From Phialocephala subalpina (Eukaryota; Ascomycota; Leotiomycetes; Helotiales; Mollisiaceae): DNA of 64,000 nucleotides. A program made the position numbers and the translations under genes. The DNA lies in contig FJOG01000036.1 of the NCBI GenBank assembly GCA_900073065.1, forward strand, positions 373,086-437,085. Direction: 5' to 3'. The notes beneath the pieces were generated by a model. The model was not told the origin of the DNA. It worked only from the letters and a program-made list of their open reading frames with translations, and ran no database searches. Of the stretch, positions 20,960 to 56,217 are shown one piece after another; the stretch's first letter is position 1; each line of letters begins with the position of its first letter.

Positions 20960-22023
20960 CTATTTGATTTTGATAGTGAAACTATGTGTAGGGTCTACCG
21001 CTGGGTACCGATGTCTCTCTAACAGGTCAGGGTTTCTGCTTATACCCAGTAATGTAGCCAAACTTGATGGTCTAGCCAATACGTGGCCAAGCCTTTGATA
21101 ATGACCCTGTCCTAATTCCATAGGCCGTAGCACAATACCATCGCACCAACCGAAACTTTCCTCGATCAGTAGGAAATACACTTGAGTGTTCATTCCTTCT
21201 AAGCAGGCGTCCTTGTCGTCCCAACGAATAGAGCTCGTCATGATAGAGACAACATTGTCGGTGCAGTCGAGACTTCCACGACTAAGCTCGAGGAATGAGT
21301 TGCCCCCTTCCGGGCCGGTGGTCCGGATCGCACAAAGTGGCCCTGTTAAGATGATAGAACCTTCTATCACAGTTCCAAAAGGATCTCCAAGGTGACTGAT
21401 ATCTACCGAGATTAATTGACAGTATGGTTTATTCGCATATCGATACCTAGGTCTAGCAACATATTCATCTATTCCTTGGTATTCTTTTTCGAGTTCTGTC
21501 TTTGGCATCAGTAATTATCTCTCCATTCATACACGCCCAAGACCACGAGGGAGCCCTCTCAAGAACACGTTTGCGGCGGCGAAATGAGGCATGGTCCGCC
21601 AAAGTAACCCCGTAGGCATATCGGCCCTCCATATTCCAGCCAAGTAATCTGTAGATTCTACCCCCAGCTGCTGGCAGGTTCGTTGAGCAAAACCAGCCAG
21701 TGCAATAAGCTCGTCGGATTCGAAAGTCAGAAGGCATTGTGTGTATTTGTTAACTATCCTCTCCCAGTTGTCGTAAATATCAATAGAATCTGCCGATCTA
21801 GCTGCCAAGATATCCAAGTCCTGCTGGGTAGTTGTAACCTGGGGAAAACTCGCTGTCTCTGCAAGACTGACACTCCCAACGAACTTGATCCTCGGCAAAA
21901 TGGACGACTCTAGTGGAGAGCACCCTCTCCTGAATAACCCAGGCTCGTCGGGCTAGAGGTGCTTTTTCAACACTGTCTCCCCAATTATGATGATCATGGC
22001 AGATAAATTGGGTTTTATCTGTT
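20960..22023 (-). pseudogene. HET-domain gene, C-terminal half (split by insertion)
   Basis: Minus-strand remnant of the part of a HET protein that follows the HET core: KTQFICHDHHNWGD, then APLARRAWVIQERVLSTRVVHF, QVRWECQSCRDSEFSPG, ADMPTGLLW, ERAPSWSWACMNGEI and a tail ending at 20960. The pieces lie in three frames, so at least two or three frameshifts separate them (near 21840, 21580 and 21500). It is the downstream continuation of the N-terminal half at 24809-25891: joining the two halves at the 6-bp direct repeat gives one continuous frame. HET proteins act in vegetative incompatibility. This copy cannot make a functional protein. Confidence 0.8.
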
Positions 22024-22027
22024 TTTT

Positions 22028-22382
22028 CGACCAATCCTCACTTCACTTTGCAAGTGCGCCAAGCCACCAGGCACGTGACACCTCGCTGCCCTGCTCACTG
22101 TTGTGGCCTAAGGCCCCTACGCCACTGGTGGCGTAGAAGGCCCTGAACGGGCACTTCGTTCAGGCTAGGAGACCCCGAAGCTTCAGGGCTTATAGGGCCC
22201 TCAGGGCCTATATATACAGCGTACCTGTCCACTGTAGAGGTAGAAGAGCAAGTCTTATAGCACACCTCAATTTATCACGTGCACGCTAGTCTAAATTTAT
22301 CCGCAACACTCACCCTCGCTTCACCTCAACCTCAACAATCCTTACCGGCCTGTATTGTGCGCTCTCCACCGCCTCACCTCTG
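22028..22382 (+). repeat. cassette left-end block, copy A
   Basis: Two stretches match copy B: 22028-22090 (core tgcgccaagccac at 22055-22067, versus 47108-47120) and a 75-bp ungapped stretch 22308-22382 (versus 47146-47220) with only a few differences. Copy A carries about 215 bp between them that copy B lacks, including the hairpin cluster. The block ends 20 bp before the start codon of the HET gene and so forms its leader. Confidence 0.75.
22117..22216 (+). promoter_or_regulatory. hairpin cluster and TATA box upstream of the HET gene
   Basis: Consecutive inverted repeats: 9-bp arms at 22117-22125/22128-22136 (ctacgccac), 8-bp arms at 22142-22149/22157-22164 (cctgaacg), the palindrome gaagcttc with C/G flanks at 22173-22188, and tataggg..cc arms at 22191-22210. 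The last runs into tatatata (22209-22216), 186 bp upstream of the ATG at 22402. The TATA box probably drives the cassette HET gene. The role of the hairpins is unknown. Confidence 0.5.
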
Positions 22383-22401
22383 CTCACCCATCTTGCCTGG
22401 G

Positions 22402-24504
22402 ATGTGCTCATCCCCGGTCGCGCGGCTGTCGAGAGCGCCAACGCCTAGCGAGAAGGATTTAGGGGAGCCAGACCAGGCTCTTGGGGCCGGCAGCGACACC
22501 GAAGTAGATGACAACGGTTCTGGGTCCGGATCTCAAGCAAATAGCCTTTATACCAGTTTGAAAGAAGGCCAGTTCCGGGTCCTTGAGATACTTTCCGGTA
22601 GCGATAACCAGATTGTGTCATGTCAACTCCACTATCTCGAAATCGGCAACAAATCACACTTGGAATATGCGGCTCTGTCTTATGCTTGGGGAGATCTATC
22701 GAAGCCACGGCATGACATCTATGTTAACGGCCAGCGACGTGCAGTGACGGAGAACTGTGAACTCGCTCTGCGAGAACTCAGGCGTATAGCCACGGAGTCG
22801 TCGGACGTGATGATTATCTGGATTGATGCGATTTGTATCGATCAGGATAATAACAATGAGCGTAGTAGTCAGGTGTTGGCTATGAGAGACATCTATAGGA
22901 ATGCAACAAACCTTGTGGTGTGGCTGGGGCCAAGAGGCGATGACGGAGCTGACAGAGCTCTGAACTTTTGCAATGGAGCTTTTCAGTGTTCTCGGGAAAA
23001 TGAACTGGTTTCCAAGGCACAATCCATTGCTAATTATGAGAAGTGGCTAGAGGGCTTTGAGGCACCGCCGGGCTACGCCTTGCGAATGGCTTGCTTCGCA
23101 TCGTTATTTGCAAGATCCTGGTTCAGGCGTGTATGGGTCGTCCAGGAATATTTGGGGGCGGCGCATAAGGGAAACAAAATCATGTTTTTTTGTGGAGAAA
23201 GTCGCACGCATGATGTATTACTTCGTCGCGTTGCTCGCGATATCTTTCGGCGCTTTGATTCAACTCATTGGAATGCCAATGCGAGGCTTGCTGATCATGC
23301 ATTCAACAATGTCATGAACTCAGCTGCTTTGGGGGCCTCGTGTTTCAATTGTATGTTGAGGCACCGGGAAGAGTTTGGACCCTCCACCCCATATAAGACA
23401 GGCCGGCAATTCCTGGAGTTAGTTCTGTCCAGCAACAGCAGCGACGCCACGAACCCCCTAGATAGGATCTACGCACATCTAGGAGTGGCCACAGAGTTCT
23501 CAATCGCAAATTACGCGAAGCCATTCCGATCACCACTCGTCACCAAAGAGCAGCCCGAAATGATCACTATATCATCAGATATAGACCTTGACCGCGCTTC
23601 TTTACTCAGAGCATTGGGGAAATACGTATGCGATTTCGATTCTACAAAGCTGCTTGTCGATTACAACGCGTCTGTAGAAGATGTCTATTCGAGTTTTGTC
23701 CGCTATGTCATTTCCACAACAAGAAGTCTAAATATATTAAGTATTGCAGGAGGGCGCACAGAGAGTATTAAACGGACATGGACCCCAGATTTAATAACAC
23801 TTTCGAAAGGGAGTATCAGAGGGATTTTATTTGACGAGCTGAGCGGGGTTGATAGGGTGCGATCCTACCGAGCCTCCGGCAGCATAAGGTCTATTGTCAA
23901 TATTCAAGATACTCCCGAGGCGTTGTTAGTCAAGGGGTTTGGATGGGGGTGTGTATGGGGGGAGTTTGCGTCTCTAATTACTCCCAAGTTCGACAGTGCA
24001 TTAATTCTCCAAGACAAACACTTTCTGAAGTGTCTCTTCGAATTGGTCGATAATCTAGGATTTTATTCAACAAAGGACTCCATTCGAAGAGCTTATTGGC
24101 GGATGTATACTCATGGTCTGGATGAAAAGAAGTATGACAAGAGGACGCTCTATCAGCTTTGGTGCTTCTGGCTCGAAAACTATAACGACAAAGGAGTTAT
24201 GGATCCTGTTCTCATGTCTTTCTTTGATGAAATGGATAGCATTTCTGGCCAATCTCCTGAAGACCGACATGGTTTTGTCACGATGAATGGGGCAATAGGA
24301 GTAGCAACCAAGAAAATTGATAAAGGAGACTGGGTTGTTATTGTCCTCGGCTGCGATGTTCCTCTAGTACTGCGCAAAGTAAATGAGCATGTGGAACTTG
24401 TAGGAGATTGCTATATTGATGGCATTATGGAAGGAGAAGCCGTGAAGGAATGGGAAGACGGAAAGGGAAGACCGGCTAACCTGTCTCTATATCGAATACT
24501 CTGA
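22402..24504 (+). CDS. HET-domain protein (intact cassette cargo)
   Basis: Intronless, 700 residues from the ATG at 22402; the frame is open further upstream but without another ATG. After a low-complexity acidic N-terminus, the HET domain shows FRVLEILSG, YAALSYAWGD, ELALRELRR, MIIWIDAICIDQDNNNERSSQ, MRDIYRNATNLVVWLGPRG and ARSWFRRVWVVQEYLGA, i.e. all three conserved HET blocks. The C-terminus ends in the usual GDWVVIVLGCDVPLVLRK...VELVGDCYIDGIMEGEA. HET domains trigger growth arrest or cell death when incompatible hyphae fuse. The gene sits inside the cassette that split a host HET gene and, unlike its host, has no stop or frameshift. Function in this isolate is inferred. Confidence 0.9.
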   Translation: MCSSPVARLSRAPTPSEKDLGEPDQALGAGSDTEVDDNGSGSGSQANSLYTSLKEGQFRVLEILSGSDNQIVSCQLHYLEIGNKSHLEYAALSYAWGDLSKPRHDIYVNGQRRAVTENCELALRELRRIATESSDVMIIWIDAICIDQDNNNERSSQVLAMRDIYRNATNLVVWLGPRGDDGADRALNFCNGAFQCSRENELVSKAQSIANYEKWLEGFEAPPGYALRMACFASLFARSWFRRVWVVQEYLGAAHKGNKIMFFCGESRTHDVLLRRVARDIFRRFDSTHWNANARLADHAFNNVMNSAALGASCFNCMLRHREEFGPSTPYKTGRQFLELVLSSNSSDATNPLDRIYAHLGVATEFSIANYAKPFRSPLVTKEQPEMITISSDIDLDRASLLRALGKYVCDFDSTKLLVDYNASVEDVYSSFVRYVISTTRSLNILSIAGGRTESIKRTWTPDLITLSKGSIRGILFDELSGVDRVRSYRASGSIRSIVNIQDTPEALLVKGFGWGCVWGEFASLITPKFDSALILQDKHFLKCLFELVDNLGFYSTKDSIRRAYWRMYTHGLDEKKYDKRTLYQLWCFWLENYNDKGVMDPVLMSFFDEMDSISGQSPEDRHGFVTMNGAIGVATKKIDKGDWVVIVLGCDVPLVLRKVNEHVELVGDCYIDGIMEGEAVKEWEDGKGRPANLSLYRIL

Positions 24505-24717
24505 AATTATTCTTGATGGCCTGTTTATACTATCTTTAATAGGAAATCTTAAGAACTAAGAGTTAGTTCTCGATTTACCGTGTGACGGTATGTAAGAGAT
24601 ACAGGCAAGGATACGACGAGTGTGGGATCTAGAATTAGCTCCAAAGAATCCTTGACTGACTTTTTCCAATTTTAGCTGGCGGCAGTCGTAGCCGAGGAGC
24701 CGAGACTGGTCGCCTTC

Positions 24718-24806
24718 GACTCACCCAAACCCGCTGGTAAAGCAGCTCTGTTCACCTTTCCGAACCGAGACAGATTTTCTTCATGTTAGGATTGGCGTGT
24801 GATAAT
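24718..24806 (+). repeat. cassette right-end block, copy A
   Basis: 89 bp that align without gaps to 51550-51638. By eye about eight positions differ, mostly transitions, as expected from RIP or drift. Begins gactcacccaaacccgc and ends ggattggcgtgtgataat, after which the two copies diverge at once, 2 bp before the tctgtt direct repeat. Confidence 0.85.
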
Positions 24807-24808
24807 GG

Positions 24809-25891
24809 TCTGTTGATTTTCCTTTCAGATTAATCAAGCAAGGACTTAGAGCCAGAGGGTTCGAACGTTGGAATAGACCTCCATTGCCATCGACCGAGGC
24901 AGTCGCAGCGATATTCAAAACCGTATTTGAATATATGTCGCCGATAAAAGCCGACTCCCGATGCCAATCCTCGCTCGATTTCTGGATGATACAAAGAGAA
25001 TCGATCCAAAGATATCGGTATCCGAGACCTCTCGTCACTTCTACAGCATCTCGGAATGTTTTTGACAAGCTTTCAAAAGGAATTGACCTTTAAAATTCCG
25101 TGATATTACTGTCTAACAATGAGATGACAGGGTTCCGGCCCCAGCAATGGCTCAATGTCACGTATATAGTTCCCGGTTTGAGGTCGCTGGTATCTCGTAC
25201 TCGAAGATGCGGATTTCCGTCAATATATCCAACATCAAGCAGCCTTGTTGGCAATTTCTTTTTGCTGCCAGCTGCTCTCATGGACAGATCTCGAGTCTGT
25301 TGACAGTAGTGATGGTTTTCAACGCAATTGGTGATCCAATCTCTGATCTGCCGTATAGAAGAGGCGCCAGGCGTGTGGGGAGGAGTAACTCGGCTTGCTT
25401 GCAGGTTTTCAATCTTTCTCGTTGGCTAATTAGCCATTAGTAATGCTAGCTAATCCTTCTGTATCTGGGAAATTTGGTCTCACCCAACTTACAATTCGTG
25501 AAATAAGTACATCTCTGTGCGCTCTATAAGCTGAAAGTTCAATCAAAAATTTGTCGCTGACAAAATTATGAGTAAAATATACAAACACAGCTTCGACACC
25601 CCGGAATTTGTTGGGAAACTGTGGATCATTGCGTTTGGCAGAATGTAACAGTATATTACATAAGTGGCAACCTTCTTCAGCAGACCGAATTACTGCGTCG
25701 GAGTTTGTTCGTAGGTGTTTTTTTTGTATATGGCGTAGTCCCGTTGGACAGGATATATTCAGATGTCTGGTTATCGAAAAGGGTTTCGCATATCTCACAT
25801 AGATGGTCGAAAGTAATGGGCGCCTCCATTGTACTGGAGCTGGAATTCTTATGGCCGGACACGTCCAGTCCCAGTTCAAGTAAAGATCCAC
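24809..25891 (-). pseudogene. HET-domain gene, N-terminal half (split by insertion)
   Basis: Minus-strand start of a HET protein: CEICETLF near the N-terminus, GCHLCNILLHSA, QIRDWITNCVENHHYCQQ, KLPTRLLDVG, YVTLSHCWG, SKTFRDAVEVTRGLGYRYLWIDSLCIIQ, then ..DIYSNTVLNIAATASVDGNG and finally LINLKGKSTD at the insertion point. Lesions: a frame change in a run of eight T (+ strand, about 25718-25725) and an in-frame TAA at 25087-25089 (EF-stop-RSIPFESL) that fits CAA to TAA. At least one intron is needed between about 25430 and 25380. With the C-terminal half (20960-22023) it was once a typical 700-residue HET gene. Confidence 0.8.
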
Positions 25892-26936
25892 TTCCAGGGC
25901 ACGTAAGCTGGAAAGGCGAGGCAGTGTTAATATAATGTAATGTTACGAAGTCAAGGCTGGTTAGGCAGCAGGGATAAAGTAAAGGTAGGATACTGAGTAC
26001 GCCAGCCGATGGTATTTTGAAGCATGATCAAGTTGATCCGTAAGAATATTTCTCGTGTCTCAGCCCAGCTACGAAGGCGCGGTTTTAGAGTAATGAGCCA
26101 TGGTCCGAGCTTCTCCCAACTACTTGATTTTTAGCAGGGGAAATCACGTACATAGCTCATTACTCAAAAGCCGCGCCTTCGTAAAGCATAAGTTTATAAC
26201 CGCTCGCAAAGCGAAAAAGCTTCTGAGGCCCGGAAGCGTGCAGAATATATACTCGGAAATGGAAGTGAGGTTTTACCCTGAGCAACTCCAAGTCGGAGTT
26301 GCTCAACGTTTAGCGCTGGATAGAGCCGATCTCCATTACGATGGTGAAGCCGAGCATTCGAGAATTTGAGCAGGCACTCTGGATTATAGGAGCAGTGAAA
26401 ATATCTGCATAGCCTCGTTGCTCCCTTTGTGATAATACATCCTCCACAAGTGCAGCCCTGACAACTGTCTTGATAGATACACAAGAAGATTTACTGGGCT
26501 GTGCTAGACGTAATCAAAATAGGCCTTACATGATAAGGCTGAAACAATAACCCCCTGATTCTATTCCCCTCAAGGGCCCTCAAGGGGCCGCTAACGTGTG
26601 CGCCAATCACAAGTGTCTGTTTAAAAGAGGGCGTGCATAAGGAAGAAATCATATTCATACCCGAAACCTTGAAGAGGGGACACGACATGTGCTAGAGACG
26701 TAAAATCACCTGACTTGATCAAACGAGTGCACTACGCTTCATGCGGCTAGCTCATTCATCCCCGAGTTTCGGGCTAGGAAGGGCGCCTCGCCCCCTACGA
26801 TTGGTTTTGCATGGGCATATTAGCGGTGTGGCTCAACCTCGTGATTTTATTCAGCAGCATGTCACATCAAGGCTGCACGAAGCTTCGGGATTATCATTTT
26901 GCCATTCTCCCCACTTGTCCTTGATGCTAGCTGGAA
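25892..26936. other. intergenic with foldback repeat
   Basis: About 1 kb between divergent HET loci. Apart from the foldback at 26070-26183, there are short palindromic stretches at 26521-26540 (aggcctta..taaggct) and 26566-26590 (ctcaagggccctcaagggg). No coding signal. Confidence 0.5.
26070..26183. repeat. foldback (inverted repeat, ~30-bp arms)
   Basis: Left arm 26070-26099 (tacgaaggcgcgg... gtaatgagc) and right arm 26154-26183 are reverse complements apart from a few bases and an indel in the central T run, with a 54-bp loop. It could be a tiny MITE-like element or a transcribed hairpin. Confidence 0.6.
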
Positions 26937-29036
26937 ATGATCACCACGTCTACGCTTGCGGAGAGCCATACACCTCTGAACGGAGCAAAAGAGATATGCC
27001 TATTGCAACCTGGTTCTGACGACTTTGAGCCTTCTCAAGTGGAGGTTTGTAGAATCTGCCGAAATCTGGACGAAAGTTCGCGTTTTCCCTTTCGAAAGGA
27101 CGATATCAGGCCAGACGGACTGCGAGTTCTCCGTAGTCTAGATGATCTCAAAGCGTCCTGCAAGACGGACTGTCGCTTTTGCTCCATATTACTTTCCATC
27201 GTCGAGTATTTCTCGGATGACCTATCGGGTTCTACTTCCTTTGGTATTCGTTTGTGGGGTGGGCACACTGAGCTATCATTGTACAATCCCCGACTTGACA
27301 TCGAGATATACTCCCCACGAGGTCAGTTGAGCCTCTGCTCATTCGGCAATTGGCGCCTGCTCGGTCACTCCGCTGATGCCGATTCAATTGCTAATGCTTT
27401 GCGATGAAAAGGAGCTTCTGTAGCGTGGCAACATCTTCCCATTCTTGGAGACATCGAACCATGCCCTGCCTCCGACAAGTCTTTCGCCTTCGTGGAAGAT
27501 CTCTTGAACAACTGCAACGAGAATCATGTCCTCTGCAAAAGAGCATCTCCCTTCTTGCCAAAACGAGTCCTGGATGTTGACCACTCTCCTAGCGTCATCA
27601 AGCTCGTGGAGACCAAGCCAAACTCCACGGATCCATATGTCGCCCTAAGTTATTGCTGGGGCCCTAATCCGAACTTCACCACCACACTTTCTTCGCTTGA
27701 TGAGAGAATGTCAGGCATCGAACTTTCATCCTTGCCAAAGGCGTTGAGAGACGCTGTAACATGGACTCGGAGATTAGGCATACGCTACATTTGGATCGAT
27801 GCATTGTGTATCATCCAAGACTCCGCAACAGATTGGGAAGTCGAGTCGATGAAAATGGCAAGCATCTACGAACAAGCGTATGTCACAGTCTGTGCGGCAT
27901 CATCACCTGCTTGCAGTGAACCATTTCTTTTTGAAAGAGAGAAATCTTGTCTCACTATCGAATGTTTGGATGATAGCGGTCAACCAACGATTGTAAATGC
28001 AAGGAAATTGCCAAGAACGGGACTGCATGATTGGTCAGGAAGTATTCCAGATGTTTGGGATATGCGTTCTTGGACTATGCAAGAGAAAATATTGTCTACG
28101 AGATTGGTTTCATACTCGGGAGAAGAGATTCAATGGATTTGCAAGACTGTGGATGCTTGTGAATGCAAAAGAGGCGTTCCGAGCAACTCGACTTACTTAA
28201 AATCCATATTCCAGCTGGACGGTCCTAGAGATGCTTACTTGTTCTGGCATGGACAAGCCGTTGAGTATACAAGGCGACAGTTGACCTGTGCCCCAGATAA
28301 ACTACCAGCAATCTCAGGGATAGCAAGTGTCCTTCACCCAGTCACAGGCTCTAAATATCTTGCTGGCTTATGGGTGGACAATCTTGTGAATGACTTGTGC
28401 TGGGAGAGAGTCGATGTGGGAGAAGTGGAGAAGAGGAGACCGTCGTGGGTCATTCCATCATCGTATCGGGCTCCATCATTTTCCTGGGCTTCCGTGGATG
28501 GAGCAGTCTTCTACAACGAGGATTGCCTTTCCCAAGATTGGACAGGACATGCAGCTGTTCTCGATACTTCCATTAAGCTTTCTGGAAATAACAAATTTGG
28601 ACAGGTGGAATATGCCAGCATCAGGATGCGGGGGCCATTTTCCTCAGCGACATTGAGCAGCAGGCACGATGTACCGGACAATTCATTCCCATATTATGAT
28701 CTCTTTGATCCTGATGGCGAAAAGCACGAGTTCCTAGCAGATGTTCTACTTCAGCTGTCTACTTGCGAAGGTGGTGTGTCCTCGATCGGTCGAGCAACTT
28801 CGAAGCTTGATCACTTACTTGAGAAAGCACCAGTTCGGGTTCTAAGCCTCGGACATATTTGGTATGAAGACGAAAAAGAAACATGGTATGTGCAATACTG
28901 CCTAGTCGTTGGGCAGTCCTCGACCGAACCGACATCGTATGAAAGACTGGGCTTGATATCATTCTATCATGAGGATTACTGGGACTGGAAGGCGTATCTG
29001 GGGGAAGCTGGATATGAAGACATTAAGCTTGTTTGA
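26937..29036 (+). CDS. HET-domain protein
   Basis: Exons 26937-27321 and 27412-29036 with a 90-bp intron (gtcagt...gaaaag) that removes an in-frame TGA; the join reads IEIYSPRG-ASVAWQHLPILGDIEP. 669 residues. The N-terminal Cys pairs (CRICRNL, CKTDCRFCSILL) are typical of this HET class. HET core: KRVLDVD, YVALSYCWGPNPNFTTT, LPKALRDAVTWTRRLGIRYIWIDALCIIQDSATDW, MASIYEQAYVTVCAA, and WDMRSWTMQEKILSTRLVSYSGEEIQWIC. A C-terminal region of the same class follows (RAPSFSWASVDG). Complete and undamaged, so presumably functional in vegetative incompatibility. Confidence 0.9.
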
Positions 29037-30169: not shown

Positions 30170-33100
30170 TTAGCAAATCTGGTGATACTTGAGGAGTTTC
30201 GCTGCGGATTCATGCCCACTACTGGTAGCAAGGACCATCGCAGACTTGAGTTGAGCACGTCCAAACTCGGAGGTAATGTCTGCCCCTGCATTCAAGAGCA
30301 GTTTCAGCATGTCTACTCGACCAAAATGTGCTGCAGTCTCTAAAGCAGTGTAGCCACGACGCTCGGAGGCAGGTGCATTCACATTCGCCCCATTCTTAAG
30401 AAGAACATCTGCTATATGCAAATAACCACCTCTGGCAGCGGCTTGGATTGCAGTGAGCCCCCAATCATTACAGGCTGGTGCATTGGCATCCGCTCCTCTC
30501 GCAAGCAGAAGCTGCACCATGTAATAATGCCCAACTTCTGCGGCGGCTTGGAGGGCAGTTCGTCCATATATGTCGGCTGCGGGCGAATTTATATCCGCCC
30601 CATATTCTAGCAAGAGACAGACAATTTTATCATCTCCTTTCTCTGATGCTGTTTGCAACGAGGTCTTTCCAAAGAGAGCCGCAGGCATATCATTTGCGTC
30701 GGCGCCTGCTGTCAACAACATTCGGACAAGCCCAATGTCCCGTCTTAAAACGGCTGCTTGTAGCGCTGTGACTCCACCACTCTGTCCTGCAGGACTGTTC
30801 ACTCTGGCACCCCAATTGAGCAGGAGTTGAACGGTTTCAGAGCTTCCTGATTGTACAGCGGCTTGCAAAGCTGTCCTGCCCTCGTACTGTGCAGCGGGTA
30901 CATTCAAATCAGCGCCTACTTCGAGAAGATACCTCACGATATTGATATTCCCAGTAATAGCCGCAGCCTGCAGAACATTCAGATCTCCGATAAGACCTGC
31001 ATTACGACGTCTTCTCCCCCGCTGATCACAGTTTGCGCCTCCGTCAAGTAGAATCTTGATCAAGTCCAGGTCACCGACGTAGGCTGCTACTACCAAAGGG
31101 AGAATCGCGGACTTTGGCGCGGGGTTGGCACCTGATTGTAATAGAAATGAAACGAGACTGTGATCCCTCACACTAACTGCCACGCTTAACGCACTTTCAC
31201 CACATTCATTCACAGCATTGATGTCTGCACCGGCTTCCAACAACATCAAAATGAGCCGTAAATTTTGATTTCGCACCGCGGAGACGAGAGAATTGCCGAG
31301 CCTTGGATGTGCTGAGAGAACGAGTTGCACTATTGCCATGTCATCGAGCCTCGTCGCTGCTTCCAGGGCGGTCTCTGACCCTCTCTCGTCATTTATGTCA
31401 GCCCCACATCTTAGCAAAAGCTCAACAAGCTCATAATTTTTGGATAAGACGGCCGCAGCAAGGACTGTCATTCCCATCCCCATGTGTTTGCCATAATCCA
31501 AGTTGACCTTCCCTGGAACTGCGTTGAGGTTGGCACCGGCATCCATCAATATTTGACAAAGTTTAGTGTTTCCATTTGCTGCAGCCCATTGTAGTGCAGT
31601 TCGGCGGTCGTGCTCGCGTACCAGATTTTCAACAAGCCTGTATCCATCTTTCCATCTTGGGGCAGGCGCATTTGCATCTGCCCCTTGTTGCAGTAGGTGT
31701 TGAACAGTTTCGTGATCGTCGACCATGGCAGCCGATTGCAACGGTGTGTTGACGGAAGGCTCAGTACCATTAACGTTTGCACCACGCTGCAGAAGCATCT
31801 CAAACATGGCGGTATCCCGAACGCGAATTGCGCATTCGAGGGCACATCCGCAAGTCCTGGACTGTACATTGATGTCTGCTCCGTGGTCTAGCAGTGTCTT
31901 TGCAATTTCGATATTTCCTTTTGAAGCAGCATTCTGAAGAGCTGCTGCTCCCCATAGATCAAGCTTGTCTAACACAGCGCCCCTCGAAATGAGGATTTGT
32001 GCAAGTTCCATATTCCCGTTCCGCGCAGCGATTTGAAGTGGCGTTCGTGAACCATAATCTGACATCCCCCCTCCGGTCTGGTCCACGTCTATATCAAACT
32101 CTAGAAACAACTTGACAAGATCGAGATTATTCTTTCCTGCCGCAAGTTGCAGTGCTGTACAGCCGAAGCCGGAAGGTGATGAGGAGACGCGGATTACAAT
32201 ACCCGGGTTCATGCCTGAGTCGAGAAATACCCTTACCATTCTTTGATCTTCAGCTTGAAGGGCACTGGCAAATATACCTTCTGCAAAAGCCTCAATCGTG
32301 GGCATCTTGTGCGAGAGTATAGCTGCCAGCAGCAGATGATTATCACCCATCTGAAACCATTTGAGCAATTCGTCACAGATGAGATCGCCGTTATCCAAAA
32401 GATTGTTGGACAATAAATAAACGGTAACCTTTAAAATCTCCAATGTAGCAGCAGTGAAATCGTGTCCCACAATGTGGCGGAGGACAGGTAAGATATCGTC
32501 ATCCCGTTGCACTGGTAAGGTGGCAGAAAGATGGTGAAAAATGTTTTCCATCGCTAGTTGTCCGAGATTTGGTTCAGTACAAATGGCAGGTACGATGGCC
32601 TGGAGGATCTGAGGTGGCATGTCTATCAACATGTTGAGGTTTGCTAATTACAAGCATCAGCCTTGTTTAACGTATCAACATGTGCATTGCATACTTATTG
32701 GAGCAAGCTGTCTCAGAAAGTAAATGAATGGTAGGTCTCGCGTTCTCACGCTAAGCATATAACCATCAGACGTTGGTGTAATGACGGTCATTCCTGGTGG
32801 AGTTTTGCATTCTTCGGCTGTATTGGTCAGGCAAGCCATTTTGCTGCGAGAGAGCGAAAGAACTCACGTGCATAAGGCGCTGCGTAGGAGACGTAGCACC
32901 CAGCAGTGGCTTGCTCTATGTCGAGCTTCGAAAGCAAAACGCCCTTGATGTAAACATGGCTGTTCTTGTTTCTTCGCTGGCGTTGTTCCAGCTTGATCTT
33001 CAGAGATATCATGCTTGTCTTGTCTCTGTTCTTACGGATACCCCACGCCTTCAGCTGTCTCTCGTATCCAGATTTACTAAAGGAGTGTTAGACTTCGAAG

Positions 33101-44858: not shown

Positions 44859-47081
44859 GATGCGAGCTTGAGCACGGAGTTCTAAGCGGCAGCCGGCAGA
44901 GCGGATAGGGGATAAAAGGAGGATGATGTTGTGACGGGAGCGGGAATGTTAACGGGCTTCTTGAGCAACATTCTTTGATTTTTAGCACTGCTTTTGGAAT
45001 CGAGGGTGATTTACTGAGGGAGGTAGATAATAGTTGGTTGAATGCAATTTTCTTCTACAGTTGTAATAATTTTCATATCGACCTCTGCTAAGATCCTGAA
45101 AGCGTCTATAGCTGAGCCGCACAATTCGTAAGTAAGTCAAAGGATTGCCTATAGATGCCAACCTTTTCTGCCATCGAGCCTTCCGTCTTCCTAACTAAGA
45201 TTAAGATAAGGTGCTGAAGCTAGTATTTGATTGGTTGGGGGATTCAATAACGCAAGAAAGGGGTTCTCACAAATATCGATAAAAGCATCTGCTTAACTAG
45301 CAAGGCCCTATCCCCGAAGTGGTTGCACTAAAGTCGAAGAGGCAGCAAAACTTAGTTTACGGAGAGAAGAAATCCAAAATCGTGGAAGATACTGAAAGAG
45401 ACTTGGAGGATAAGAGCAGTTGGTGCTGGTGCTGTGACACGTGAAGAGATTCGCACCAAGCACGTCGATGGCAACCTAGCGCATGTCTCCAATCACATTT
45501 ACGAGCGATGGACCAACGGGGCCAAGTAATGATGAGAAGAGTACGGACGCTGTTGGTTCATGACTCAACCTTTTGCTCCCTGAGCTCAGAGTCAGTTTCT
45601 GCACCGGACCGGGTGAGATTTTCAAGAAGCAAGCCTACTCTATAAAGATCCCGGTGTGAAGAAATATGTTTCTCGGACCGGCTCCCAGCGTGCGGATTAA
45701 TCATACGGGAAATGTAAATATCCCGTACTCTCAAGGACTTTGGAAGGAAAGTAGAGTTAAATTCGACCAAATTTCGAGAATTAATTCAGGAGAAGCTGCT
45801 CTTGGCTGTCCTTGAGCCCTTGGATGCCATATTCCCAAGTTTGATGATTTTTTTGTCTTCTCGGTGCTTCGGTCTATCGCTTTTTCTGAACATCGACTGG
45901 ATGAGGTAAGATTACATTCAAGGGTTCCAGGCTCGTGGTGGACGAGGAATTTAATTGAGAAGGCAGCAGGTTTTGTTTAATACCCACGACTAAAGGAGAA
46001 TAGAAAGCAGAAATTCGGCAACAACATTGAGCTGTTCTCACCTGGTACTGGAGAGGCATATGCTGTTTGAAGGGTGTTCATTCATTTTGCTGAGGGAAGA
46101 AGGGGGGATTTGGGGATTTGGCGAGTACGACAGTACGAGACGCGAGCCCCTGAGAACGTGCCTCTGAATGCTCGCCAAAATTGAAGGCATGTTTGCTGAA
46201 ACTCGACTGGAGCACGTCGTAGATGGTCAAGCTGTTCTCCAAAGTTGGTCTTGTAGTTGCGACGTCATTAATATTCATTGGAGTCTTGTGGTTTCGCGAT
46301 GTCTTGGTTTGGTGGCTGGAATGAGTCCCTCAACACTACATGAGCTGGAAAGTTTTCACACAGACTTGTTCAAGACAGAGAAACTTCTGTCAAAGATATC
46401 AAATAGGTCTCTGGAAAACTAAGCGTGGCTTTTTTGTTTTGTGAAAGAAATCAAGGTGTCTCTCCAAGTTCGTGGGCTAAATCGCCAAACTAACCTCGAG
46501 CCGATGAAAACCGGTTAGCGTTGACGATTAGCAAAGATAATATGCTGTTTTGAACTCTCCCCTCTTTCTCTTCCATTCACCGCAAAGACTGAACTGCCAG
46601 CCTACCACCTTCGATTCTTTCTTCCGACTTCTTCTACACGTTCCCGAACTCACCTTGACCCCGTAAGTACTGTTATACCACGGGAATGTTGACGCTGGTG
46701 CTTACGTGACCAGCGCCGCCTTTGTGCTTAGTTCTGCTTGGGCACAGCTCAGGCCTGCTCAGGTCTGCTCACCTGTTGGCGCAGAAATCGTAAAATTTTA
46801 ACGAGTGGCCTGGAAAGGCTTCCCCTCCAGCCACGCGTCCCAAGTCTGTTACCAGTGTATATTCACCATCTCTGCCAGCTGGAATCCATCCCAAGACAAT
46901 TTCCTCGTTTACCTATCTGCCCGTGACTGACCACTTACAGGAACATTATCTGCGCCGTAATTCAAGAGTTTTTTTTAATCCCCTTGCTTATTTTATCTTG
47001 GACCAAGTAATCTAAATTAGCCGCACCGTATTTGTCGCCTTCGTATCTTGCTCCCCGATTTTCCTTCTGATCTCATTTTGG
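44859..47081. other. 2.2-kb region without supported gene
   Basis: Only short frames (under ~90 codons) on both strands; none shows a domain. The part near 46560-46930 is pyrimidine-rich and could be an old promoter or leader. No repeats matched except the cassette end that begins at 47082. Confidence 0.5.
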
Positions 47082-47220
47082 CGCCAAAATATTGCCAATT
47101 TTGCGGATGCGCCAAGCCACGGCGCACGTGACCTCTCGCCCCTCTACTCACCTTCGCTTCACCTCAACCTCACCCATCCTCACCGGCCTCCATTGTGCGC
47201 TCTCCACCGCCTCACCTCTG
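47082..47220 (+). repeat. cassette left-end block, copy B
   Basis: Matches copy A at tgcgccaagccac (47108-47120) with gcacgtgac just after, and over a 75-bp ungapped stretch (47146-47220 versus 22308-22382). The ~215-bp hairpin-rich segment of copy A is absent. Confidence 0.75.
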
Positions 47221-47566
47221 GGCACGGTATGATGCAGGCACGCCAGGAGGAACGCCTTGCGCTAGTGCTTGACTGGCTCTGCCCATATTAGCCTACCGTG
47301 GTGATGGTGATGGCGATATGAAGGAGACGAGTGAGAGGCAGCGGTTAGGCCGCAGTGTACCTCCGGACATGTAGTGTCCATGGAAAGTTCGAGAAACCTG
47401 CTGTAATGCGCCACACCCGTGACCAAGTTTACAATAGTGTCACGTCAGGTTGGGCAGCTATAGCCTCACTCGGAGTCGACAAACAATTGTCACCTTACAT
47501 TCCCCAAATGAATCATTCGCATCTACCTTAATCCTTACCCATCACTCTATCCACAACACCAGCGCA

Positions 47567-50500
47567 ATGCCTCGCTATCAATACTCTAGACTTCAAGTCG
47601 AAACTCAAGAAATTCGCCTAGTCACCTTACTAGCCGGAAAATTCAGCGATGCTATTCGATACTCAATATCTCACAAGGCGTTTGTTATTCCTAAATCAAA
47701 TTCAAAACCGAAGGCATCCTTGAACACGATACAGGAAACTCTTCCCGAAAATTAGGGTGTCTCTGAGACGCTTGAAGGGCGACTTCTGTACGACTATAGC
47801 AACCCAGATCCGGCTCTCGAGTTCACATCATGGGAACATCCGAGCCCATCGTTTGATCCATGCATCATAAATGATGAAGATAACCGGGATATTATAGAAG
47901 TGCAGCCTCAATTTGAGGCACTGTCATATACATGGGGCTCGCCAAAAAACCCTGAGATCTCATACGTCGAGGTCATTGATGAGAAACAACATAGCACCAC
48001 TCTTTACACTTTAGAGATTGGCCAGAATCTTGCCCTTGCCCTTCGGCACTTACGGCGCTCGGATGATAGCAGAGTGCTGTGGATTGATGCAATATCTATC
48101 AACCAAGAGGATATCAAGGAACGCGAGACACAAGTCATGCGAATGGGAGACATCTACAGACACGCACACCGAGTAGTAGTGTGGCTCGGGCCTAGCTTCG
48201 TAAAGAGTCACCTCGCAATCTCGGCTCTGGAATTCATTGGCAAGCAAGTAGAAGCGACCAAAAATGACTGGGTATATCAATCTCCAGACTGCACAGAACC
48301 CCAATGGTATCATGCCAGATGTGTTCTGCCATATACTGAAAAGGTATGGCACGCTACACAAACTCTGCTAGAGTTTCCCTGGTTTCAGCGCGTCTGGATC
48401 GTACAAGAAATTCAACTTGCGAACGAGAGGTGTATGATGATATGCGGCGACAAGGAAATCTCCTGGTACCTGTTCCGACGTGGCATTATCCTTCTTTTCG
48501 GCAAACGAAACCACCTTCCCGAAACACTACGTCCACTTATAGAACGGGTTGCTGAACTTTCTCGGACACTGACTAGTGATCCCTTACAAGCTCTCCTTAT
48601 TGTTGCTCGAAGAAATCTGTGTAAAGAGCCCGTGGACAAAATATTCGGCATACTAGGACTTACTTCCCCTCTTTTTGAGAGCAAGGTTCGGCCCAATTAC
48701 TCGCTTTCCGCCTCAGAAGTTTACAAGAGCATACTTCTCGAACAAAGCTTCCTCTCAAGTCGTCTGGAGCTGCTTGCCTCGTGCGACAGTAGAGTGCCAA
48801 GGATGGTCGGGCTACCATCTTGGGTTCCAGATTGGTCAGTAGACACAGGGGAAACAATGAGAACCTATGGCTCCTTTGTCACTACGGGATATTCATCCTC
48901 TCGTATAAATATCTACCCTCTGGTGTGCTTGAAGTTGTCGGAAGAGAGTGCTGCACAGTGTTACTTGTCAGTAACAAAGCTCTGGATACGACACAAGATC
49001 TAGCAGATTTTGCTCGAAGAATCGGTTCTAGAGCTACTGGACATTCTTATGTCACAGGTGAAGATCTGTTAGATGCATACGCCTGGACATTGTCCAGTGG
49101 TACCTTAAGAGATCGATACAAGGCCTTACAACATTATCCGACTCACGCGGAGATGAAAGAGCTTATTCTTCATCATACAACCAAAGCGTCCAAAGAAACA
49201 TCAGACAAAAAGTTAAGCGACAAATTCGAACGTTTTGTACAGTATTCGAAGGGAAAAAGTTTCATGGAAGCTACGAATGGATATATTGGGATAGGCATCT
49301 CAAGTGTTCGACCAGGTCAGTGGTCCGGTTCTGAGACCATACCTCAAATATTTAAAGTGCTTGGAGTGCTATAATTGACACTTAAATAGGCGATATGGTG
49401 TGCACAATCTTAGGGTGCTCACATCCCCTCCTTCTGCGTCCAAATTCCGAAGGCACCTTTGAAGTCATTGGACCTTGCTACCTCCACGGAATAATGTACG
49501 GGGAATCCTTATTAGGTCCTCTGCCTCATCCATGGGAGTATCAGCTACTCGATATGAAAGATGGTGGCGGCGCATTTGAACCATGGTACTTAAATCCAAC
49601 CACGAACATACACACTCGAGACGATCCAAGACTAGGGGAATTACCACCAGAATGGGATAAGGTTGAAGATCGAGAGAGAACGCGAGATGATCCTGTATTC
49701 GTGTCATGGTACAGAAACAAGACTAGTGGAGAGGAAATCAATTCTGATCCACGACTTACTCCAGAAGCATTACAGTACTAGACAATAAGTCTGTGCGGTT
49801 GAAGCTTTGACCAGAAAATATCAAAGAAATCTATTCGACTTATTATTACACAAAACAACCATTCTAACAGCTATCCCCTTGATTTTTGAAGTAGATTAAT
49901 AAGAAATAACAATTGCATTTTCCCCTTAAAACAAAATCTACCCTAGCCACCCTAGTACTTCGTATGCTAGCCCTTTGCCTTAATATAAGCCTTAATCCTA
50001 TCAGGCATACTCTCCACCAAAGACTCAAAAAAAGAGTCAGGAATAGCAAGCCAAGTAGCCTTCAAAGCTTCTTCCAAAGCCTTCTTATCTTCTTCTGATT
50101 CCCCCTTAGTATTTATAACTTCAGGGAATATCTTTTGGACTCGTTTTTTGAGTTCCCACTAAGCGTGTTTAATAGGGTTGAGATCCGGGGAGTAAGGAGG
50201 CCAATTAGTCGTATTTATGCCGTTTTCCTCGAACTATTCTTTGACTTTTTTGGCAGTATAGATAGGGGCGTTATCTTGCATGAAAATAAGCTCGTCGTGG
50301 TAATACTCGAGGAGTCGGTGTTCTAATACTTGGATGTATAAGTCGGCAGTATACCCATGCTTCTTAGACTCGAAGTCACGCTCCAAAATAAATAAAAGAC
50401 ACCTTTCTCCATTGCCCCAAAAGGCTGCCTAAATTATCACTCTTATCTGCTTTCTATTCTTGTATATTGTGACCATCTGCGGCTTCCATTTATCGGCTGG

Positions 50501-51184
50501 AGTCCCCCATACCTATTCTTGCTCCACACCTTTACCCCGCTTTACAAAACACTTATCACTCCACATGTATTAACGCCATTTATTAACGGTCTAGTGCTCC
50601 CTAACTCGGCACCAAAGAAGCCTGTTAGCAGCTATAGTTACTATCAATTTAGGCCTCTTTTTAGCACGCCAATGCTTGAGCCCATAGCGACGTGCTAAGT
50701 TCTTGATGTAAGTATTGCTCATTATAAGGCCTATATCTTCTCGGCGGTACTAAAAGGTTTTTTTGGGGTATTTTCGGAGGTCTCGCAGTATCGTTCGCTG
50801 GTCTCGTTCGTTATAAATCGGAGGATAGCCTTTTCGAGGTAAAGAAGCACCGTTAGTTCTTAATATTTCGAGTGCAAATATACCGCGTATAATGCTCTCG
50901 CCGCGCTTTATCGCGTCGGCGATTTTAGCTTGAGATATGCCGGCCAAAGCAGCGCCCTCGATCCTTCCCCTTTCATAAGGAGTTAGTTCGTAACCTCGAG
51001 GGCGCCAATTACCATCGGTTTGGCGCAAAGGAATACGTTATGGTGGCATAATGGTAGTTTAAAGAGGAAGGAGTAATAAAGGAAAGCGCGAATTTTCGCG
51101 ATTTTAACCAAAAAACGCACAGACTTAAAACCCGTGACTGTACTTGCTCGAGGTGTTGAACTAAAGACTTTCAAGCTAGTTTGA
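47567..51184 (+). pseudogene. HET-domain gene with nonsense, frameshift and Tc1 insertion
   Basis: Starts MPRYQYSRLQVETQEIRLV. A TAG at 47753-47755 replaces what is probably Trp (PEN-stop-GVSETLEGR), fitting RIP. HET core: FEALSYTWGS, NLALALRHLRR, RVLWIDAISINQEDIKERETQ, MGDIYRHAHRVVVWLGPS, FPWFQRVWIVQEIQL, PVDKIFGILGL, LPSWVPDWSVDTGETM. The frame slips near 48895-48915 (continuing as KYLPSGVLEVVGREC). An intron lies at 49316-49389 (VRPG-DMVCTILGCSHPLLL). Then GPCYLHGIMYGES and DPRLTPEAL, where a Tc1 element enters at TA 49771. After the element the last codons continue in frame (LARGVELKTFKLV, stop 51182-51184), the standard HET C-terminus. Three independent lesions make it non-functional. 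Confidence 0.85.
49771..51142 (-). mobile_element. Tc1/mariner-type transposon, RIP-damaged
   Basis: 1.37 kb bounded by TA (49771-49772 and 51141-51142). Inverted ends both read cagt... then aagtctgtgcg about 15-18 bp in. The transposase runs on the minus strand from about 51050: MPP-stop-RIPL, then the helix-turn-helix part ELTPYERGRIEGAALAGISQAKIADAI and LRDLRKYPKKTF-stop. Later pieces include FMQDNAPIYTAKKVKE-stop-FEENG and NWPPYSPDLNP followed by a stop inside W-ELKKRV, the Tc1/mariner (IS630) DDE catalytic region. The stops sit at expected Gln and Trp codons, the mark of RIP. Inactive; inserted in the 3' end of a HET gene. Confidence 0.9.
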
Positions 51185-51549
51185 CTAGGCGATGGGGTAT
51201 CGGCGTTGGAAATTGTAGGAGGCATTGCAATAGGCAGTTTTTCGTTATAAACCACTCTATATTGAAGGTGCTTGATGACTCTTGCTCGGTTTTGAATCTG
51301 GATTTGTTCTCTTGGTGTTCTAAACGCTTTTGTTCCGGCAAGGACCCTTGATAAGTGTAAGAGGGGAGCGAGAACAGCCACCGTCACGATATCTTAATAG
51401 GCTCAAAGAGGTAGCTATGTTACGGGCAACATGATTTTCAAAGTTCTATATATAGATAATATAGAAACTATAACCGATTCTCGAGGGAGCTAGAAGGGGA
51501 CCCCTGTAAGCGTGATCCATCTCACCTTCGACTCACCCTTGCTCACCTT

Positions 51550-51638
51550 GACTCACCCAAACCCGCCGGTAAAGCAGCTCTGCTCACCTTTCCAAACAGA
51601 AACCGATTTTCTTCGTGTTAGGATTGGCGTGTGATAAT
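51550..51638 (+). repeat. cassette right-end block, copy B
   Basis: 89 bp, ungapped match to 24718-24806. Sequence similarity stops exactly after gtgtgataat in both copies. Confidence 0.85.
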
Positions 51639-51940
51639 CGCTTGCAATTACATGGCATTAATCTGTCATACACTTACTTAATTTCTCTGTTCTATAAGAA
51701 CCCGTTCTTAGAAATGCATAATACGACACTATACTTGTGATAGCACGTATAAATTGCGGCAGTAAAACTGCTTTATAGATTGCTACAGACAACTATACTA
51801 AGCTGAAGAGGAAGAAGAATAGAGAGAGATACAAGTGACAGATTTAACAAAATATAGGAAGAAGATGAATCGTGCAATGAAAAGATCGATCATGGAAATG
51901 TAAAGGGCTTGCTCAGAGTCTGTCTTATTGGAGTGTCATA
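51639..51940. other. short intergenic region
   Basis: About 300 bp of AT-leaning sequence between the cassette end and the 3' end of the C2H2 gene. No feature seen. Confidence 0.4.
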
Positions 51941-53131: not shown

Positions 53132-54419
53132 TTTTGGAGGGCTTGAAGCGAGGTGAGCTTAACGGCTACGGCTTCCTTCGGCGAACACAGAGAGAACAAA
53201 GTCTTGTTAAACCGAGTCTATGCGCGTGTTCTTATTCTTAAGAGACCGAGTCTATCCGCACGAGGCTGGCTGACCGAGTAGGTCCCTAGACATGACATCA
53301 CAATTCACAGCTGTTACGATTCGCTGGTTTGGCGTCTTTTTTGGGTTAGCTGCATTAAATCTCGCCCTTTTTACAAGTAATTTGAACCCCGGCATATCAA
53401 CGCCCGAGTGCGGTAGAGGTTTTCGATGCCTTGTATCACATGACCCCGCAATGGACGCAGGATTGAGAAGCCAAAATTTGATGAGGGCGAAATCAGGCGC
53501 ATTTCGCCCTTTAATACCAGAGGCTAGAGAGTAGAAGGTGGGAAGAACTTGCGTATAGTGTTCTTCGTTTGAGTGTCACGTGCTCCCGCACACTGTTCCA
53601 GCACTCAGGTCCAGCTCGGTTTCGGCTCAAGTCTGCACTGGTTCTGCACCCTGGGAAGAAGAGGACGATGAGATGGACCCTGCTCCTCCAAGCCCAGCGC
53701 AAGCTGGAGCTGGAGAAGCCAAACACCTTGCTGAACTGGACGGGTTGGAAACTTGTAGATGGTTTCGCGTGGAGAAGAATGGCAACGAATCAATTCTCCA
53801 TCATCTTGACTCTTTCTCTGCTGTGATATACCTTTGTTGTGGTTACGTGAACGCGATCCCTGGAACATCTACACTCAGAAGGCGTCCAACCGTCGATTTG
53901 TTCGGGAACTTCAAAGTCCGGTTTGGCCCGAGACATTGCCAGGAGCCTCAGTCTACTTTCTTATTGATTTTATGATATCACCTTGCAGTGTCGTTGAGCG
54001 TTCACGATAAGAAGGTCTCAGAATGTCCCAGCAAACCAGGAACATTACCAAGGACTTCACTGAGTCTTTTCTCGACCGTGCAAAGCAGATATTCAATGCT
54101 CCTCCTGATCAAACAGTCTCGTCAAGCAAATATTTGAGCCTTGAAGCTTCCAATTCCATGTTTGGATCGCCCATAAGGAGAATCGTGGAAGTTCCTAACC
54201 GGAATCTCACAGCGATCCTGAACATCGCCGACGACCATCGAGTTCTCGATAGCAGACCTCTTTGGGGCTCACATTTCCAACATTTTCGTGTTTAAAGCAA
54301 GGTATAGAGATCATCCAACTCTTGTCTCAACATCTCCATGGGACGGCATACACTTTCTGCAGTTATCTTAATGCATTGCCTTATTAGATTGGGAACATTA
54401 CCGCAAATTCTTCTCCTTT
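53132..54419. other. region without firm gene
   Basis: About 1.3 kb. Frames of 70-130 codons at 53569-53975 overlap in two + frames and on the minus strand, and a 90-codon frame lies at 54023-54295; none shows a domain. They could be exons of an unrecognised or decayed gene. Confidence 0.35.
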
Positions 54420-56217
54420 CACAGGAGTACAACTTATTAACTTTGAAACTCTTCTAATTCCAAGAATTCTACTAATATAAGGAAAAAATACTTAATTACT
54501 TATATAATTATTAAGTTCAATAAAAATAACCAGATTATAATTAAATTATTAAATAAAATAATTAAATATTATTTAATAATATTATATAATTAATTATATA
54601 ATTAATATATATATTATAATATATAATTCTTTATTTTTGTTAATTAGTTTATTATATAAAATAAAAATTAAAAAATTAAATACTTTTTGAAATTTATTCA
54701 AAAATATTTATATTATATATAAAAATTAAAGAAAAAAATTTTTTCTCGATATAAATTTAAAGTTTTATTAGTATTATTATTTAAATAATTATTCAATTGA
54801 ATAGAATAATTTATATTTTTGATTAAATCAAATTAAATAATATTTACTTTGGTAATTTATTCGAATTTATTAAAAAAAAATTTATTTTAAATTAATTATT
54901 TTATTATTTTTATTATAATTCGATTTCTTTAAATTATAAATTTTAATAATAATATTTTATTTTATTTATTTTAATACTCGATTAAATTTAGTATTTTATT
55001 TAAGTAAATAATTATTCTTTAAATTTANNNNNNNNNNNNNNNNNNNNNNNNNNNNNNNNNNNNNNNNNNNNNNNNNNNNNNNNNNNNNNNNNNNNNNNNN
55101 NNNNNNNNNNNNNNNNNNNNNNNNNNNNNNNNNNNNNNNNNNNNNNNNNNNNNNNNNNNNNNNNNNNNNNNNNNNNNNNNNNNNNNNNNNNNNNNNNNNN
55201 NNNNNNNNNNNNNNNNNNNNNNNNNNNNNNNNNNNNNNNNNNNNNNNNNNNNNNNNNNNNNNNNNNNNNNNNNNNNNNNNNNNNNNNNNNNNNNNNNNNN
55301 NNNNNNNNNNNNNNNNNNNNNNNNNNNNNNNNNNNNNNNNNNNNNNNNNNNNNNNNNNNNNNNNNNNNNNNNNNNNNNNNNNNNNNNNNNNNNNNNNNNN
55401 NNNNNNNNNNNNNNNNNNNNNNNNNNNNNNNNNNNNNNNNNNNNNNNNNNNNNNNNNNNNNNNNNNNNNNNNNNNNNNNNNNNNNNNNNNNNTATCCGGG
55501 GTTTATTATAAATACTAAGATTTTAATTTGGTATCAATAAATATATTCTCTGTTTTATCTGGTTTCTCTTTTTCTCTCTTTCTCTGCCCCTTTCTAGAAG
55601 GGGTACCTAATTACTTATATAATTAAGGAAATGAGATACTAAGATAATAATTATTAGGGTAATAAAGATTAAAACTTTATTTCTCTATTTACTTTTGAAT
55701 CCGCCCTTTTATCCTATCGCTAAGTAATCACCTGATTATACCGACATTATTATTATTAATTATTAATTAAAAATAAATATTAGATTAATTTTTCAAAAGA
55801 ATTAAAAAATTTTAATTATTTAATATATTAAGGTATTTATATTATAATATATATACCAATAAAAATAAAAATATTATTTGATATATATATTTTATAATTT
55901 CGTATTTTAATATTTCCTATAGAATAATATAATATAAAAACGTAATAAATAAACGTTTAATCGTAAATTATTTCGTTATAATTAATAAATTAAATTAATT
56001 TGATAATAATTATATAAAGTAATTAATTATATATAAAATAAACTTATAAATAAAATGGACAAAAATATTTGATTATTTTTAGAGAGTAAAGAGCTCCTTA
56101 TATAGTGGGGAATACGTGGTTGGTATAAACCCTCGAAACTACCTAATATAAATAAGGATTTCTAAGAAACTTATATAATTTTATTATAATAATTATTACG
56201 CTAGAGAGTCCGGGCAG
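54420..56217. repeat. AT-rich block with assembly gap
   Basis: Extremely AT-rich sequence interrupted by 465 N (55028-55492). Small islands of normal composition remain (about 55540-55610). This is the expected look of a RIP-destroyed repeat cluster. Flanked on the right by the 107-bp repeat. Confidence 0.7.
55028..55492. other. assembly gap (465 N)
   Basis: Undetermined bases in the AT-rich block; true size may differ. Confidence 0.95.

Follow-up and report, generated by a model that had tools for sequence, protein, structure and literature searches.

How large repertoires of HET and NLR genes are generated and spread in fungi is an open question. It is raised directly by a locus in Phialocephala subalpina, a genome reported to encode 534 HET models among 20,173 genes (PMC5148876), where a complete HET gene lies inside another HET gene on the opposite strand. 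How did one recognition gene come to be placed within another? We addressed this question for a 64,000-nucleotide stretch of DNA (the window), for which a preliminary description had proposed that the inner gene belongs to an insertable cassette, a packaged recognition gene that disrupts a rival.

The inserted unit and the interrupted gene

The 2785-bp insert (22024–24808) is enclosed by copies of tctgtt at 22018–22023 and 24809–24814, and the two minus-strand pieces of the host gene, 20960–22017 and 24815–25891, join in frame over one 6-bp copy. The coordinates of the split gene and of the opposite-strand HET unit in the preliminary description were correct, as was the restored frame; relatives of the host protein align through the joint. 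The features of this locus and of a second, related unit in the window are listed below.

20960–22017, minus strand: 3' half of the host HET gene, decayed; the read-through protein matches P0119–P0123
22018–22023, plus strand: left tctgtt copy with the core TGTT inside (junction reading, end alignment)
22019–22098, plus strand: conserved left end, outer part, with the imperfect inverted repeat ccaatcctcac
22099–22308, plus strand: nested MITE-like repeat, 210 bp, with dispersed copies in the genome
22309–22486, plus strand: conserved left end, inner part, with the ATG at 22405 and roughly the first 27 HET codons
22405–24504, plus strand: HET gene (PF06985), 699 codons, open throughout
24626–24808, plus strand: conserved right end, matching C58, C91, C14, C86, C51 and other copies
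24809–24814, plus strand: right tctgtt copy (junction reading, end alignment)
24815–25891, minus strand: 5' half of the host HET gene, with an in-frame stop at 25090–25092
47071–51644, plus strand: second unit of the family, 4.6 kb, with left end 47076–47232 and right end 51520–51644
47756–49003, plus strand: HET ORF of the second unit (PF06985, E 3.9e-33)

The inserted gene, held by an ORF at 22261–24504, is a member of the HET-domain family (PF06985, 106.5 bits against a cut-off of 22.5, E 2e-30). Its closest relatives are P0001 (90% identity, 93% coverage) and P0002 from Cudoniella acicularis (72% identity, 65% coverage). No P. subalpina protein occurs among its 118 database matches, and the host gene has a single match from this species, P0226, with 31% identity; hence, both may have escaped annotation or may be polymorphic within the group. 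The first 27 or so codons of the inserted gene fall within the conserved left-end repeat, so the beginning of the protein may come from the element; P0002 has a different, native-looking start.

Besides the insert, the host gene has the in-frame stop and several frame changes, and to judge from its reading frames it is now a pseudogene. The five closest relatives listed for its read-through protein, P0119–P0123 (66–78% identity, 53–83% query coverage), align across the insertion joint with no adjoining gap; in P0122 a single-residue gap follows some 12 residues beyond it. Among three more distant relatives, P0124 and P0127 are gapless at the joint and P0125 has a one-residue gap there, while paralogues from the same genome also cross it, for example C68 (query 1–198) and C71 (query 1–206). 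The relatives are open at the lesion sites, so intact copies exist elsewhere. On these alignments, the uninterrupted host gene that the preliminary description had proposed to look for is found at the protein level in the five closest relatives, which form a protein-level empty site and may be paralogues of the host. The host HET piece alone matches at least 154 places in the genome, so a HET gene is an unremarkable insertion target. Together with the further lesions of the host, this abundance leaves the disruption of a rival unsupported as a functional event, and nothing shows the switching of recognition that had also been suggested.

Several other features of the window were noted. Just upstream of the host gene, an inverted repeat at 26070–26183 (33-nt arms, 91% complementary, 48 nt apart) may be another MITE. 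An ORF of 825 amino acids with ankyrin repeats (30170–32647) adjoins another HET ORF (27408–29036), and an AT-rich block at 54000–56000 contains degenerate AT repeats, with a G+C content of 24% and 10% in two 1-kb intervals.

Conserved ends and their distribution in the genome

A search of the 68.1-Mb genome found only one copy of the full-length insert, the ends of which recur and the middle of which does not. The recurring parts are insert positions 8–75 together with 286–463, and 2555–2785 or pieces thereof. The outer left end (positions 8–75) matches the C14, C58, C74 and C84 copies at 81–84%, and the inner left end (positions 286–463) matches other units, whole or in parts, at 71–92%. The stretch between them (positions 75–285) is a dispersed repeat with 8-bp inverted ends, TGTTGTGG/CCGCAACA, and with CTCAC at 22094–22098 and 22309–22313 as a flanking duplication (both read by eye), which marks it as a MITE-like element lying within the left end. 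Its copies are 98–99% identical on C62, C100 and C115, in addition to many diverged ones. This MITE is missing from the other left ends aligned, and unit C25 has a reversed copy in the corresponding position of its own left end.

When 18 left and 19 right ends were aligned, most showed sharp edges and unrelated flanks; at the edge, the left ends W47, C84:80675 and C86 have diverged or align poorly. The left ends follow the pattern TGTTRTTT...CAATCCTCAC... and the right ends ...GTTAGGATTG...CTGTTRTT, forming asymmetric terminal inverted repeats by eye, with CAATCCTCAC near the left edge and GTTAGGATTG further from the right edge. The TGTT core is present at 13 of the 17 left and 16 of the 20 right ends in a listing without left ends W47, C58A and C84:80675 and right end C51; the base preceding it is C in 15 of these right ends and 7 of these left ends. 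The core repeats are 4–6 bp long and missing from W47; outside TGTT the two copies of a pair vary, and tctgtt stands at both ends in two pairs, this insert and C14. Accordingly, tctgtt at the junctions of the insert is explained by the common occurrence of TGTT at the family ends: the hexamer does flank both sides as had been described, but a plain, free 6-bp target duplication is ruled out by the same core at most other ends of the family. The distribution of the C before the core weakly fits site-specific recombination, in which the core would adjoin element sequence on one side and target sequence on the other.

The search for further copies of the end blocks, which the preliminary description had put forward, yielded 25 left and 21 right ends, with unrelated cargo between those that pair. 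The 21 right ends remain from 25 places, of which C54, C51:3288379, C78 and C84:256374 were dropped for matching the query in its inner part only, and the left ends include five short matches counted uninspected (C3, C39, C105, C35 and C29). Nine of the 25 left ends have a right end in the same orientation within 15 kb, compared with 0.06 expected under uniform placement. A tenth unit, C22, which is in neither end list, came from a profile search of a locus fetched for its HET gene. The ten paired units span 1.25–14.6 kb, the 14.6-kb C52 pair being possibly nested or a chance pairing. Units C58B and C58A stand head to tail with one core in common; in the pairing count, the nearest right end of C58A is that of its tandem neighbor (4 bp), and its true partner lies 7.7 kb off. 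No right end was found within 7–10 kb of left ends C74, C84:371845, C114 (8.6 kb) and C37 (9.8 kb). The second unit of the window is diverged at the core at both ends, with no TGTT at either edge.

In an all-against-all DNA comparison of nine of the ten paired units (without the 14.6-kb pair), common sequence was limited to the ends, the nested MITE and some short repeats. The comparison also revealed short internal similarities of about 90–165 bp in C74, C84:80675 and C25, about 370 bp near the left end in C25 and C96, and 70 bp in C58A and C91. As had been noted for the insert, no transposase was seen in the subset of unit ORFs that was scanned, and no autonomous copy was found among the family loci. 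None is visible inside left ends C52:243993, C46 and C36, where N bases make up 3787 of 5501, 1990 of 5001 and 1443 of 4501 positions, respectively, or at left end C96, where the ORFs resemble retroelement pieces by eye. Peptides of the left end occur in further proteins (P0240–P0243, P0249–P0254 and P0256), and the family thus probably extends beyond this genome.

Genes carried between the ends

Among the ten paired units, HET cargo was identified in three (this insert, the second unit of the window and C22) and NLR cargo, with NPHP3_N/NACHT domains and ankyrin repeats, in another three (C58A, C58B and C25). Other units carry a protein kinase (C45) or a Clr5-TPR gene (C86), and the doubtful 14.6-kb pair holds BCS1_N and C2H2 ORFs. 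The cargo of C14 is a small gene matching P. subalpina PAC_06518 with 100% identity over 37% of the query, its second exon matched by eye; the homologue P0239 has a few different residues upstream, at the start, a weak hint of possible gene capture in C14. Several cargo genes are split over frames, which points to introns or decay, as do the frames following the HET ORF of the second window unit. The orientation of the cargo relative to the ends varies among units; the ends are therefore more than just a promoter. Inside left end C114 lie an ORF that looks hydrolase-like by eye and an NPHP3_N/NACHT-type ORF, as in C58A, and inside left end C37 lie ankyrin, HET and NLR ORFs.

HET or NLR genes are thus the cargo of six of the ten units, or of four of eight without C22 and this insert, both of which were met through their HET genes. 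The genomic background includes at least 154 NPHP3_N matches, not every one of which need be an NLR, as the model also matched in 9 of 14 control genomes (5 above the cut-off). HET or NLR matches lie within 6 kb inside 4 of the 25 left ends, compared with 0.79 expected if uniform; an initial count of five was reduced because the match at C52:400694 lies beyond the right end. Outside the left ends the count is 2 of 25, one of them being a neighboring unit. These numbers rely on at least 211 HET and at least 149 NLR positions, from which the HET genes of W47 and C74, for example, are missing, and do not separate a preference from residence in HET/NLR-rich regions. Since the genome is full of recognition genes, a preference for them is suggestive only. 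We regard as rather unlikely a stronger version, namely a cassette family with mostly recognition or immune cargo (HET, NACHT-NLR, kinase), occurring as loaded units only, giving new start codons to its cargo and landing in or beside HET loci, which would reshuffle the incompatibility repertoire much as integron cassettes reshuffle bacterial genes.

Some single left ends have other neighbors. At C74, the C-terminal frame of an ice-binding protein gene (PF11999; L012 7299–8462) runs into the family left end, and a HET ORF followed by an ankyrin-like ORF (by eye) lies about 2–4 kb inside. At C84, an ORF of 341 amino acids just inside the left end (L014 2213–3235) has no Pfam match; it looks bacterial-like by eye and was possibly acquired horizontally.

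Alternative explanations and relation to known elements

We consider it quite probable that 22018–24814 is one copy of a short non-autonomous mobile family whose conserved ends recombine at a TGTT-containing target and enclose varied host genes, and that this copy, with a HET frame starting in its left end, landed in a HET gene of another subfamily, now a pseudogene. The earlier notion of a packaged recognition gene holds to the extent that common ends enclose unrelated cargo, two units stand in tandem and a protein-level empty site exists. In the proposed mechanism, host genes would be captured between the ends, and movement of the units would depend on an enzyme provided in trans. Candidates are a tyrosine-recombinase-type, site-specific recombinase, suggested by the near-fixed core bordered by a target base, and enzymes of the Helitron2-like or DDE kind. 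An element carrying one HET gene would then have inserted into another. Points against this reading are the missing autonomous copy, the unpaired ends, the possible paralogy of the relatives used for the empty site, and core repeats that are short, variable within pairs and missing from W47.

A misjoined assembly, with the HET unit placed artificially into the host gene, appears extremely improbable: both junctions coincide with conserved element ends found elsewhere, and the host frame reads through with one core copy. It is also improbable, though less so, that a MITE-like or other repeat landed on either side of resident HET or NLR genes, in two insertions or as tandem arrays, the HET gene never having moved as a unit. 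This would agree with the unpaired state of 16 of the 25 left and 12 of the 21 right ends, with the density of HET and NLR genes, which makes them common neighbors, and with two C84 left ends just outside HET genes. However, the whole unit is missing from the relatives of the host gene, the oriented pairs far exceed expectation, and the shortest pair spans 1.25 kb, no pair with its ends close together being seen.

The ends also resemble those of non-canonical Helitrons (Helitron2). These rolling-circle elements, whose terminal inverted repeats are asymmetric, have been described in fungi (PMC5148889) and could here have captured HET and NLR genes. Inverted repeats at unequal distances from the ends, the head-to-tail pair and the cargo speak for this origin, and the FoHeli elements as presented in PMC5148889 have similarly asymmetric repeats and a near-tandem insertion comparable to C58A/C58B. 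Their termini (TCAG..ATTTT and TGCCT..CTCCTGT) differ from the ends described here, and gene capture is given no important role by their authors (PMC5148889); Helitron gene capture in a fungus has been reported elsewhere (PMC4289320). Against a Helitron2 origin, TGTT stands on both sides of most units, and neither of the two Helitron_like_N loci in the genome has family ends in the 9.5–9.9 kb around it, masked stretches and contig ends being unseen, so that unlike in Helitron2 no Rep-helicase was found beside the ends. The single right-end hairpin tested had 70% of its cells paired, a value reached by 129 of 500 shuffles (83% when the partner was slid by -3). Overall, a Helitron2 origin seems doubtful to us.

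Starship elements have short direct repeats at their ends, and the units might be remnants or miniature versions of tyrosine-recombinase elements of the Starship or Crypton kind, which is the most plausible of the alternatives, yet still short of an even chance. The short, near-fixed direct repeat at both ends is in line with this origin, and the C preceding the core weakly looks element-borne, at the right ends only. Starships mobilize cargo as the units do, and one with an NLR is reported in PMC12134995, but the sizes quoted there, 15–700 kb, exceed the 1.25–14.6 kb found here (2.8 kb for the insert) with one or few cargo genes. None of the 25 DUF3435 matches in the genome lies beside an end, with masked or missing sequence past several ends; a Starship captain beside the ends was rejected on these grounds, the nearest DUF3435 on the same contig being about 96 kb off (C47), and the unit ORFs scanned contain none. 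Crypton elements are described as having terminal direct repeats of 4–6 bp, taken as recombination sites (PMC3212892), and repeats of this length are present at most family ends, though not at W47, whereas the imperfect inverted repeats, the gene cargo and the lack of a recombinase gene in the same DUF3435 search are unlike Crypton.

Pack-type and other gene-capturing non-autonomous DNA transposons have common ends, no transposase and different host genes inside, as do the units insofar as their ORFs were scanned. In contrast to these, the units frequently carry a long HET or NLR gene, their ends fit no family tested, and no short empty pair was seen. Mutator-type Pack elements have long TIRs and variable target duplications of 9–11 bp, in contrast to the 4–6-bp near-fixed repeats and short imperfect TIRs of the family. 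Compared with HET incompatibility genes (PF06985), the insert has the domain and the host aligns with HET proteins, but in contrast to usual HET-domain genes one lies here inside another, in a mobile unit. The units are best read as a non-autonomous, gene-carrying mobile element family of Phialocephala.

A literature search for short HET/NLR cassettes with common ends showed no match among the papers listed. According to PMC5148876, HET-domain proteins and similar sequences were left out of the P. subalpina transposon library, so the family could escape routine annotation. On the comparisons made here, we conclude that the family appears to be a real and new-looking group of short cargo-carrying elements, with one copy having brought a HET gene into another. 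Other genes framed by the same ends, several of them recognition or immune genes, suggest that such genes can move as packages. If true, short elements carrying whole recognition genes would provide a concrete, testable route for the spread of HET and NLR genes, one that would predict presence/absence polymorphism, fusions with element-made N-termini and dispersal between species.
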